Below are positions 13,870 through 18,562 of a stretch of DNA of 64,000 nucleotides, one piece after another. Location of the stretch: contig DVLI01000005.1 of NCBI GenBank assembly GCA_018715595.1, positions 1 through 64,000 on the forward strand. Reading direction: 5' to 3'. The position numbers were made by a program, and so were the translations under genes. Source of the stretch: Candidatus Caccoplasma merdavium (lineage in GTDB: Bacteria > Bacteroidota > Bacteroidia > Bacteroidales > UBA11471). The notes beneath the pieces were generated by a model that did not search any database, was not told where the DNA came from, and saw only the letters and a program-made list of their open reading frames with translations. The number at the start of each line of letters is the position of its first letter. Position 1 is the stretch's first letter.

Positions 13870-16800
13870 ATGAAAACAAAGTCACTCATCTGTGGCATGA
13901 CAGCGCTCCTGTCTCTCGGCCTTGCCCCGATACAGGCCCAGCAATACGACCCGCCCTGTGTCGTCGAACAGTGGAGCAATGCTTCGACCTGCGAAAAAGT
14001 CATCGACATCAATTTCTCCGACGCCGACATGCCCGACACCTGGCCGGGCGGCACCGGCATGGCCTGCCCCTCATACAGCGAAGGTGGCTACTACAACGGC
14101 ATTCTCGAAGTGCCCCTCTACGAGGGTGGTGAGAAAAGCGCGCACACCTATCCGCTGCTTTTCCACAACTGCACCTTTGCCAACCGGAATTCCAACAACG
14201 GCTATGCCGCTGCCACGGCCGCCTTTGCCCGGCAGTACTACGAAGGACAGAATGCCACGCAGAAAAACGACTGGACACAACCGGGACACACCGTCTATCT
14301 CGAAGACGAAATCACCTACGCCAACGGAAAACCCAATCACGGCATCGCCGGCTACGCCCACCTGTGCCGCGACGGCGCGACGACCGATGGCAACGGCAAC
14401 AAGGTGAGCATGCACGGGTGGATTGAAATCGACCACATACCCTACGTCGAACGCGTGCAATGGTCGTGGTCGTCATCATCGTGGGGGCGTGGCATGAAGT
14501 GCGACTACAAGATAGGCGACGGCGAGTGGCAACCCCTCGTGTGGATGGGCAGCAACCGGCAGAAAAACGGCTACACCGTATACAGCGACCAGGGCTATTT
14601 CATGGAGAACATCATCGACGCCCCGGACGTCTCACTGCGCTGGCGCATCTGGGACGGCGACCCGGGAACCACCACGTTCCAGACCGACGCCTCGGGCAAT
14701 CCCCTCTTCAACGTCGCCATCGACCCCTACGGACAGCAACAGCCGGTGAAGATACACAAGATACAAATCTTCGGCAGTCCCATCTCGGCCGAGCAAGCCT
14801 CGTATGCCCGTGAAAACCCGGTTTCGGACGTGGGCGAAATCACCTTCGGCGGTGACGAGACCGACCCCGACGACCCCGAGGGCTCGCAAGATGAAGATGT
14901 GCCCTGCACATTCGGCATCGTGGCCCAGGACGGCAGCGGCGACTACACCACCATACAGGCCGCCATCGACGCCGTGGCCGACGGTACACGCGGCATCATC
15001 TTCATACGCGACGGCATCTATGACGAAAACATCTATGCCGGCACATCGAACGACAAGGACAAATACATCAGCCTCATCGGCGAAAGCCGCGACGGCACGA
15101 TACTCACCTCGTCGACCGACCGCGGCAGCGGCAACCCACAAAACAACTACACCGATTGCGCCGCGCTGAACGTCTACGTCAAGAAATTCTACGCCGAGAA
15201 TCTCACCATACGCAACACGGCGGGCAACGTGGGGCAGGCCGAGGCCCTCTACACGGCCGGTGACGCCCATATCTTCAACAACTGCAAAATCAGCGGATTC
15301 CAGGATACCTACAAATCGAACTCGGGCAGCCGCGGCTATTTCTACAACTGCCTCATCGAAGGCGCCACCGACTTCATCTACGACAGCGGGCTCGAATGGT
15401 TCGAGAACTGCACCATCAACTGCCTGCCCGGCGGCAGCTACATCACTGCGGCAGCCGACGCCTCGCTGAAAATGACGCAAGTGCTTTACCCGCAACTCTC
15501 CAACGCCACCTTCTATGCCGGACTCTTCTTCAACCGCTGCCACATCACCGCCGCTGACGGGGTGGCCAATGGCAGCTACTACCTGGGACGTCCGTGGAAA
15601 GAAATGTGCGGAACCGCCTTCCTCAACTGCACACTGGGCAACCACATCAAAGGGGCAGGCTGGTCCACCTGGAACGGTGCCGAAAACTCGGCTTCGTACT
15701 ATGAATACAACAACACCGACACCGAAGGGAACCCCGTCGATGTGTCGCAACGTGCCGCATGGAGCCGCCAGGCCACCCAAGCCGAATATGAAACCTACTT
15801 CAACACCACGTTCCTGTATGATGCACAAAACCCCAATGAGCTGTTCGACCCCGCGAGCCTGCTGGCCGGCATCAAAGCCCCCGGCCGTGCAACCATTAGC
15901 GGGAAAGAACTCTCCTGGGAAGCGGTGGACAATGCTGCCGGATACATGGTTATGCGCAACGACAAGGTGGTAGCCTTTACCACCGAAACCGTTTACGAAG
16001 CCGACGACAACACGGCCGCATGGAGCGTAAAAGCCGTTTCGCAACGCGGCATCACCAGTGAGGCAGCCTCGTGCAAATCGCCCTTGCTGGCCTTCCCCAC
16101 CGCCGAAGGATTCGGCAAGTTCGCCACAGGAGGCCGCGGCGGCAAAGTGGTAACCGTGACCAACCTCAACGACAGCGGCGAAGGGTCACTGCGCTGGGCT
16201 TTCGAACAATACAAGGACCAACCGCTGACCATCGTATTTGCCGTGTCGGGCGAAATCGTCCTGCAATCGGAAATGAAGATCAACCGCAAGAACTGGACGC
16301 TGGCGGGACAGACCGCTCCCGGCGACGGCATTGTCATCACCCACCACAAGATGAACTTCGGCAGTTCCGAAAACTTCATCGTGCGCAACATGCGTTTCCG
16401 CATCGGGCAGAAAGACGCACAAGGGAACATTCTCGCCGAGAACGCCTGCGGCGCCGAGAACTGCACCAACTTCATCTTCGACCACTGCACCTTCGGCTGG
16501 TCGGTCGAAGAGAACATGAACGTCTTCGACTCACACTTCCACACCGTGCAATACTGCATCATACATGAAGGGCTCTACGACGCCGGCCACTCCAAGGGCG
16601 CCCGCGGATATGGCTGCCAATGGGGCGGCTCGCCGGCCACCTACCACCACAACCTGTTGGCCCACAACAACAGCCGCAGCTGCCGCTTCAACGGCGCGCG
16701 CGGAGAAGACTATGTCGTGTATCTCGAATACATCAACAACGTCAACTACAACTGGGGCAGCCGACTGGGGTGCTACGGCGGTGAAAACACGGCCGACATT

Positions 16801-17742
16801 ACCGAATTTAACGGATTGAACTCGGCGCACGAGTGCAACTTCATCAACAACTACTACCGTCCCGGCAAGAACACAACGAGCCAGACCTTCGTGGCGCCCT
16901 CCTACGCCCGCGACGGAGCCACGTCATGGGGCCCCTCCCAATGGTACATCAACGGAAATGTCATGCACGGGAACACGTCGGTAACCAACAACAACTGGAA
17001 CGGCGTTGCTCCCGATGCCGGCTACTCGCTCGCCCAACTGCGTGTCGACACCCTCATCGTGCCGCAGCTCAACTACTACCGCTGGACGCTGCCTGTCAAG
17101 TATGGCGAATACGACTTTGAGACCTACGCCTACGCTGCCAGCGAATACGAAACCGCACAAGAGGCTTACGAGACCGTTCTCGACAAAGCCGGCACCATCA
17201 ACCGCGACGCCATAGAGCAACGCATCGTCAGTGACGTGCGCAACGGAGTCACCACCAACAATGGCGGCAGCAAAGGCAACGGCATCATCGACACCGAAAA
17301 CGACGCCGAGGGATTCATCGCTTACTCGACCGACTACACCGTACCCGCCGACAGCGACGGCGACGGCATGCCCGACGCTTGGGAAACGGCACACGGGCTC
17401 AACCCGCAAGTGGCCGACAACAACATGGTAAACAGCGACGGATACACCGCTCTCGAAGTCTATCTCAACAGCCTCATGGGCGAAGAGATGGATACCCACT
17501 TCACCAGCGGCATCGTTGCGCCCGAGACCGATGAATGCGGCGTGTGGTATGCCGACGGTATGCTGCACATCGGCTCTGCCGCCGGACAACCGGTCGTTGT
17601 TTCCAACAGTGCCGGACAGACAGTGCTGCTCACCCGGGCCAACACCGAAAGCCTCAGCCTCGAACACCTGCCAAGAGGGTTCTACATCGTCAGCCTCACA
17701 CAAGCTACCGGGAAACGCGAAACCCTGAAAATCATTCGCTAA
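13870..17742 (+). CDS. Secreted pectin methylesterase (CE8) - pectate lyase (PL1) fusion with secretion tail
   Basis: A 1290-residue modular enzyme. A signal peptide (MKTKSLICGMTALLSLGLAP, cleavage near AQA-Q) is followed by a 320-residue N-terminal region of unclear fold. The pectin methylesterase domain spans about 345-650, with GFQDTY near 475, GATDFIYD near 498 and the signature LGRPW near 572. A short fibronectin-III-like linker (about 675-740) leads to a pectate-lyase family 1 beta-helix (about 743-1100) opening with GFGKFATGGRGG. Near 1161 is DSDGDGMPDAWE, a calcium-binding dockerin/thrombospondin-3-like motif. The last 70 residues look like a type IX secretion sorting domain, ending RGFYIVSLTQATGKRETLKI. 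The enzyme should demethylate and cleave homogalacturonan at or outside the cell surface. No SusCD genes are adjacent. Confidence 0.92.
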   Translation: MKTKSLICGMTALLSLGLAPIQAQQYDPPCVVEQWSNASTCEKVIDINFSDADMPDTWPGGTGMACPSYSEGGYYNGILEVPLYEGGEKSAHTYPLLFHNCTFANRNSNNGYAAATAAFARQYYEGQNATQKNDWTQPGHTVYLEDEITYANGKPNHGIAGYAHLCRDGATTDGNGNKVSMHGWIEIDHIPYVERVQWSWSSSSWGRGMKCDYKIGDGEWQPLVWMGSNRQKNGYTVYSDQGYFMENIIDAPDVSLRWRIWDGDPGTTTFQTDASGNPLFNVAIDPYGQQQPVKIHKIQIFGSPISAEQASYARENPVSDVGEITFGGDETDPDDPEGSQDEDVPCTFGIVAQDGSGDYTTIQAAIDAVADGTRGIIFIRDGIYDENIYAGTSNDKDKYISLIGESRDGTILTSSTDRGSGNPQNNYTDCAALNVYVKKFYAENLTIRNTAGNVGQAEALYTAGDAHIFNNCKISGFQDTYKSNSGSRGYFYNCLIEGATDFIYDSGLEWFENCTINCLPGGSYITAAADASLKMTQVLYPQLSNATFYAGLFFNRCHITAADGVANGSYYLGRPWKEMCGTAFLNCTLGNHIKGAGWSTWNGAENSASYYEYNNTDTEGNPVDVSQRAAWSRQATQAEYETYFNTTFLYDAQNPNELFDPASLLAGIKAPGRATISGKELSWEAVDNAAGYMVMRNDKVVAFTTETVYEADDNTAAWSVKAVSQRGITSEAASCKSPLLAFPTAEGFGKFATGGRGGKVVTVTNLNDSGEGSLRWAFEQYKDQPLTIVFAVSGEIVLQSEMKINRKNWTLAGQTAPGDGIVITHHKMNFGSSENFIVRNMRFRIGQKDAQGNILAENACGAENCTNFIFDHCTFGWSVEENMNVFDSHFHTVQYCIIHEGLYDAGHSKGARGYGCQWGGSPATYHHNLLAHNNSRSCRFNGARGEDYVVYLEYINNVNYNWGSRLGCYGGENTADITEFNGLNSAHECNFINNYYRPGKNTTSQTFVAPSYARDGATSWGPSQWYINGNVMHGNTSVTNNNWNGVAPDAGYSLAQLRVDTLIVPQLNYYRWTLPVKYGEYDFETYAYAASEYETAQEAYETVLDKAGTINRDAIEQRIVSDVRNGVTTNNGGSKGNGIIDTENDAEGFIAYSTDYTVPADSDGDGMPDAWETAHGLNPQVADNNMVNSDGYTALEVYLNSLMGEEMDTHFTSGIVAPETDECGVWYADGMLHIGSAAGQPVVVSNSAGQTVLLTRANTESLSLEHLPRGFYIVSLTQATGKRETLKIIR

Positions 17743-17760
17743 ACAATATCCCATTCAATC

Positions 17761-17797
17761 CAAGAGCCGTCCCCGGACAAGTCGGGGACGGCTCTTG
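17761..17797. terminator. Perfect 15-base hairpin after the pectinase gene
   Basis: CAAGAGCCGTCCCCG / CGGGGACGGCTCTTG with a 7-base loop, 18 bases after the stop. There is no T-tract on the plus side, so it may be a stabilising or weak bidirectional terminator. Confidence 0.6.
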
Positions 17798-17880: not shown

Positions 17881-17903
17881 AAAAAAAGCCCTCGTGAGAG
17901 AGC
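17881..17903 (-). terminator. Terminator at the end of the candidate structured RNA
   Basis: Minus-strand stem GCTCTC / GAGGGC (one G-U) with loop TCAC, followed by seven T residues (A at 17881-17887 on plus). A second T7 directly follows the RNA's closing stem (17904-17910), so the 3' end could be at either. Confidence 0.7.
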
Positions 17904-18106
17904 AAAAAAAGAGATTGCGCCGTATGATGCGATGAAACTCCGAACGACAGGTTTTGAGTGCCCCTCCCCCTTTGTAATCCACCGTGCTAAGCATACCATA
18001 AAGGCGTGGCCCGCCATTGGAGAAGAAAGCTTGTCTCGGTATTTCATAAGATTTGAAGAGTTTCCCAATCCAATACGACGCAATCTTATGTCTTAACCGT
18101 AATTGA
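17904..18106 (-). ncRNA. Candidate rod-shaped structured RNA, possibly 6S RNA
   Basis: No convincing coding frame exists here, yet a consensus promoter and terminators on the minus strand enclose about 200 bases. The 5' side AGATTGCGTCGTAT (18073-18086) pairs with ATACGGCGCAATCT (17912-17925) over 14 positions with a single G-U, closing the molecule. Inside, GAAACTC pairs with GAGTTTC, then CTTCTCC with GGGGGAG, separated by bulges, and an apical GGCG-GGCCA-CGCC hairpin caps the rod. Paired ends, a rod with internal bubbles and a length near 190 bases match 6S RNA, the polymerase-binding RNA, but primary-sequence identity cannot be claimed. RNase P RNA, tmRNA and SRP RNA signatures are absent. 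Confidence 0.5.
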
Positions 18107-18112
18107 CTATGA

Positions 18113-18144
18113 CAAATATATAGGAATAAATCGAGAAAAACAAA
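18113..18144 (-). promoter_or_regulatory. Promoter of the candidate structured RNA
   Basis: Minus-strand TTTG (18141-18144), 20-base spacer, TATATTTG (18113-18120): one of the best Bacteroidetes promoter matches in the window. Start predicted near 18106. Confidence 0.8.
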
Positions 18145-18153
18145 TTTTACGGC

Positions 18154-18184
18154 AAAAAAATAGTCCCACCATGACTGATGGGAC
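18154..18184 (-). terminator. Terminator of the thrS-infC-rpmI-rplT operon
   Basis: Minus-strand stem GTCCCATCA / TGGTGGGAC (one G-U) with loop GTCA, then ATTTTTTT. It is 25 bases after the rplT stop and overlaps nothing else; the structured-RNA promoter starts 10 bases further on. Confidence 0.85.
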
Positions 18185-18208
18185 TTATTTCTATTGCAAA
18201 TTGCTCTT

Positions 18209-18562
18209 TTACTGGGCATTTTTTGCTTGCAACACGATAGCGCGGAATGCTTCGGGATTGTTCATGGCCAGGTCGGCAAGAACTTTGCGGTTGATCTCGA
18301 TTCCGGCTTTGTGCAGGGCACCCATCAGTTTCGAATAAGAAAGACCTTCGAGACGGGCGGCTGCGTTGATACGCTGAATCCAAAGGGCGCGGAAGTTGCG
18401 TTTTTTGGCTTTGCGATCACGGTAAGCATAGGTAAGACCTTTTTCCCAGGTATTTTTGGCAACGGTCCACACGTTTTTGCGGGCACCGTAATATCCGCGG
18501 GTAAGTTTCAGGATTTTTTTTCTTCTTGCTCTTGAAGCAACGTGATTGACTGATCTTGGCAT
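18209..18562 (-). CDS. rplT: 50S ribosomal protein L20
   Basis: L20 binds 23S rRNA early in large-subunit assembly. The 117-residue sequence is typical throughout: [20 protein letters not shown], a strongly basic long N-terminal helix, and a globular C-terminal half ending with [16 protein letters not shown]. It is the last gene of thrS-infC-rpmI-rplT. A 130-base spacer separates it from rpmI, longer than the other gaps in the operon, so an internal control element is possible but none is recognisable. Confidence 0.98.

Follow-up and report, generated by a model that had tools for sequence, protein, structure and literature searches.

A Bacteroidales 6S RNA gene, very probably, downstream of rplT in Candidatus Caccoplasma merdavium and its relation to 6S-Flavo

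The locus between the pectinase gene and rplT

The window analysed here is a stretch of 64,000 nucleotides from Candidatus Caccoplasma merdavium, and the locus of interest is the gap of 466 bases between the stop of a pectinase gene at 17742 and the stop of rplT at 18209. The former is a 1290-aa open reading frame (13870-17742), called a pectinase gene in the initial annotation, which adjoins a thrS-infC-rpmI-rplT block; directly 3' of it lies a strong hairpin (17762-17797, AAGAGCCGTCCCCGACTTGTCCGGGGACGGCTCTT) that is probably its terminator. On the minus strand rplT, encoding L20 (18209-18562), is the upstream neighbour of an RNA gene placed at 17881-18107 of the same strand from a match to Rfam family RF01693 together with the layout of promoter and terminator. 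The predicted RNA would start at about 18107 and end at either 17904 or 17881, for a length of about 175-227 nt. The initial annotation had described the gap as free of protein genes, and this agrees with what was found. Chance open reading frames of 77-121 aa do overlap the RNA, and these could be taken to mean that the fold arose by chance in a spacer that is not transcribed, or that a small protein gene was overlooked. However, the frames in the gap have no Pfam match, for which reason a protein gene in the spacer was rejected, and the RF01693 match and the covariation described below, which already refutes this explanation, leave it extremely improbable.

The RNA is preceded on the minus strand by a promoter of the Bacteroidota (sigma-ABfr) type, with a -33 box TTTG at 18141-18144 and, after a 20-base spacer, a -7 box TATATTTG at 18113-18120. 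In this phylum the promoter consensus for the primary sigma factor is TTTG / TAnnTTTG (PMC7366714). The TTTG-N20-TATATTTG promoter proposed in the initial annotation is thus present exactly where it had been claimed, and it is conserved in homologues. When 30 loci were compared, the window itself among them, TAnnTTTG was found no more than 80 bases upstream in 27 (shuffles: mean 2.2, maximum 7), and the -33/-7 pair was found in 23 (shuffles: 0.15).

At the 3' end, the two U-tracts that had been noted previously are both there. The first is a U7 tract (17910-17904) on the 3' side of the closing stem, and the second is the U7 of an intrinsic terminator-like hairpin (GCUCUC-UCAC-GAGGGC followed by U7, 17903-17881, minus strand). 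A further terminator-like hairpin followed by a T run lies 3' of rplT (18162-18185, minus strand) and sets the RNA gene apart from the rplT operon. Since the RNA lies directly 3' of rplT, in the window as in 9 of the 30 loci in all, it could be a cis-regulatory element or a 3' UTR structure of that operon. However, in the other 21 loci no rplT turned up at distances of up to about 1.5 kb from the RNA, and synteny with rplT was rejected as a defining feature for that reason. The hairpin between rplT and the RNA and the conserved promoter of the RNA itself also argue against a place in the operon, which is very unlikely. Because rplT is a neighbour in only 9 of the 30 loci and is separated from the RNA by that hairpin, the RNA is considered an independent gene outside the rplT operon.

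Architecture and covariation of the RNA

The predicted fold of the RNA has an energy of -56.6 kcal/mol (z -3.06), and none of 200 shuffles did as well. Its closing stem, P1, pairs a 5' strand at 18073-18086 (AGATTGCGTCGTAT, or AGAUUGCGUCGUAU in the RNA) with a 3' strand at 17912-17925 (ATACGGCGCAATCT, or AUACGGCGCAAUCU in the RNA), and its 14 pairs, one of them G-U, are as the initial annotation had drawn them. Within P1 lies an inner stem, P2, formed by a nearly invariant AAACUC (18058-18063) and GAGUUU (17935-17940), followed by a central bubble with an A/U-rich 5' strand of about 20 nt (18038-18057) and a 3' strand of about 15 nt (17941-17955) that may form a small CC...GG hairpin. The apical arm (17956-18037) contains GAG/CUC, a long covarying stem, and CCAC/GUGG closing two terminal hairpins; all of these elements are on the minus strand. 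The 6S RNA of E. coli is a rod of about 180 nt with a closing stem, a central bubble and an apical arm, and a long closing stem, a central bubble and an apical arm are all found in the RNA described here. The possibility that the 5' bubble strand contains a perfect complement to the -7 box (CAAAnnTA) was also considered and was dropped, as this was seen in only 1 of 29 sequences.

A comparison of homologues for covariation had been proposed as a check on the fold. When 29 Bacteroidales sequences with 54-88% identity to the window were aligned, compensatory changes appeared in the closing stem, with changes on both sides in all 10 of the P1 pairs that were tested. P1 is therefore not a chance stem. 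Over the whole rod of 36 pairs, 93.1% of cells were paired. Shuffles reached 82%, and sliding the partners lowered the figure to 38-47%. A total of 26 pairs had changes on both sides compared with 16 in shuffles; the alignment used for these counts was not fitted to the tested structure, and the structure was drawn in part from the RNAalifold consensus of the alignment. As AAACUC/GAGUUU and GAG/CUC are both nearly invariant, covariation says little about these two helices, for or against.

Family membership and the relation to 6S-Flavo

The RNA matches RF01693 from end to end (17907-18080, minus strand; model positions 1-179 of 179) with 151.3 bits, which exceeds the gathering cut-off of 60 bits and makes it a member of that family. 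RF01693 is Bacteroidales-1, and its Rfam description reads "6S-Bacteroidales RNA suggested". There is one copy in the genome of 2.39 Mb, and the RNA was present in all 7 genomes of the taxonomic family that were searched, its own included. Searches with RF00013, RF01685 and RF01693 detected no other 6S candidate in the genome, and no control genome matched in the search with RF01685.

The initial annotation had suggested that this was an orphan structured RNA, possibly a 6S RNA. The 6S reading is supported both by the end-to-end RF01693 match and by the detection of 6S RNA and pRNAs in B. thetaiotaomicron (Ryan et al., PMC7366714). The RNA is not an orphan, as RF01693 already catalogues its family. 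A search with RF00013, the model of classic 6S RNA, had been recommended as a check. That search gave no match in the window at E values up to 10 and none in the whole genome (cut-off 46.4 bits), while the E. coli and B. subtilis controls did match. This check alone would have misled, because RF00013 finds nothing here; the models that fit are RF01693 and, by homology, RF01685.

Earlier work on these RNAs listed 6S-Flavo and Bacteroidales-1 as separate motifs, and Bacteroidales-1 was first described there as an RNA for which cis-regulation and a switch were both uncertain (Weinberg et al. 2010, PMC2864571). A 6S RNA has also been detected in Flavobacterium psychrophilum (PMC9723704), and PMC7366714 cites Wehner et al. 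2014 for pRNA predictions within the phylum. The B. thetaiotaomicron 6S RNA of PMC7366714 is equated with the RF01693 RNA from the Rfam description and not from sequence; when named genomes were scanned for a DNA pattern, only four loci were returned, none of them from B. thetaiotaomicron.

The uncertainty in the original motif description, together with the lack of an RF00013 match in the window or the genome, would fit a conserved structured Bacteroidales RNA other than 6S, such as an sRNA with a different protein partner or one that base-pairs with mRNAs. However, this is difficult to reconcile with the homology to 6S-Flavo described below, with a rod-with-bubble shape whose closing stem covaries, with the absence of any other candidate in the genome searches above, or with the pRNAs reported in Bacteroides, and it is considered improbable. 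The locus is very probably a Bacteroidales 6S RNA gene, a member of RF01693 that stands alone between a housekeeping promoter and a terminator of its own. This kind of RNA gene is already known, and since the family is catalogued and experiments have detected the counterpart in Bacteroides, the locus itself amounts to a routine annotation at the Rfam level.

What can be added to the RF01693 model is P1, because the Rfam structure has no pairs in the first 54 positions or at the 3' end. A covariance model, R1, was made from the alignment of 29 sequences with P1 included. In practice this improves the structural model. R1, which contains the closing stem, matched 68 of 148 genomes across the order, compared with 39 for RF01693 (E <= 0.001, with R1 E-values roughly calibrated and the best of these hits having been used to build R1), and the two separate Bacteroidota families were joined. 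When 148 genomes were sampled across the phylum, R1 matched 16 besides its own genome and RF01685, the 6S-Flavo model, matched 17. In 13 of 13 genomes with both matches the positions of the two were nested, which indicates homology to a recognised 6S family. Additionally, weak RF01693 matches fell on flavobacterial loci and weak RF01685 matches on divergent Bacteroidales loci. It is likely that Bacteroidales-1 and 6S-Flavo belong to a single Bacteroidota family of 6S RNAs whose long closing stem covaries and is left unpaired in the Bacteroidales-1 model of Rfam, and that many Bacteroidales that appear blank to current models would be seen to carry 6S RNA if the two models were merged. This study thus adds evidence from evolution for the closing stem, along with the homology of the two Bacteroidota 6S families.

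Three genomes of another family of the same class were matched by R1 but not by 6S-Flavo (G228:C1:1337810-1338025, G263:C6:607577-607802 and G298:C2:181712-181927), and these loci are probably 6S RNAs.

The connection with RF00013 is more distant. Over the phylum sample RF00013 matched 15 of 148 genomes, none of which was also positive for R1 or RF01685 among the matches listed. One flavobacterial 6S-Flavo locus (L049:1509-1678, plus strand) matched RF00013 over its full length at 25.8 bits, below the cut-off, with an E value of 0.0017 in a search of 361 bases; nine further flavobacterial loci gave no RF00013 match in a larger search. RF01693 matched L049 weakly as well, again over the full locus. 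As RF00013, 6S-Flavo and Bacteroidales-1 all match at one place in L049, this locus may bridge the Rfam families RF00013, RF01685 and RF01693.

Proposed function and comparison with known 6S RNAs

By analogy with 6S RNAs in the literature, the rod would imitate an open promoter and occupy the RNA polymerase holoenzyme that contains the primary sigma factor. As nutrients run out, ordinary promoters would be down-regulated by the RNA, and when nutrients return the polymerase would copy the bubble as a template into a short pRNA and in this way be freed. The pRNA would be templated by the conserved 5' strand GGGAAACUC(A/U)UCAA around 18066-18053, and comparison with E. coli 6S RNA suggests that the 5' strand of P2, AAACUC (18058-18063), is the probable template region. 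If the 6S reading is correct, this lineage, in which promoters depart from the consensus of E. coli, has a 6S gene driven by its own type of housekeeping promoter.

Compared with classic 6S RNA (SsrS, RF00013), the RNA in the window has the same rod-with-bubble architecture and about the same size. However, it is not matched by that model, and the sole link found is the sub-threshold match of a flavobacterial relative. Its similarity to 6S-Flavo lies in the fact that R1 and RF01685 hit the same places. The RF01685 model differs in that it spans only 108 central positions, and no match was obtained with it on the genome studied here (cut-off 85 bits), where no control genome matched, although flavobacterial genomes do. 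The closest likeness is to RF01693. The Rfam structure of that family pairs only the apical arm, and P1 and P2 fall outside it, but the RNA in the window matches the model over its full length, and strand and layout agree.
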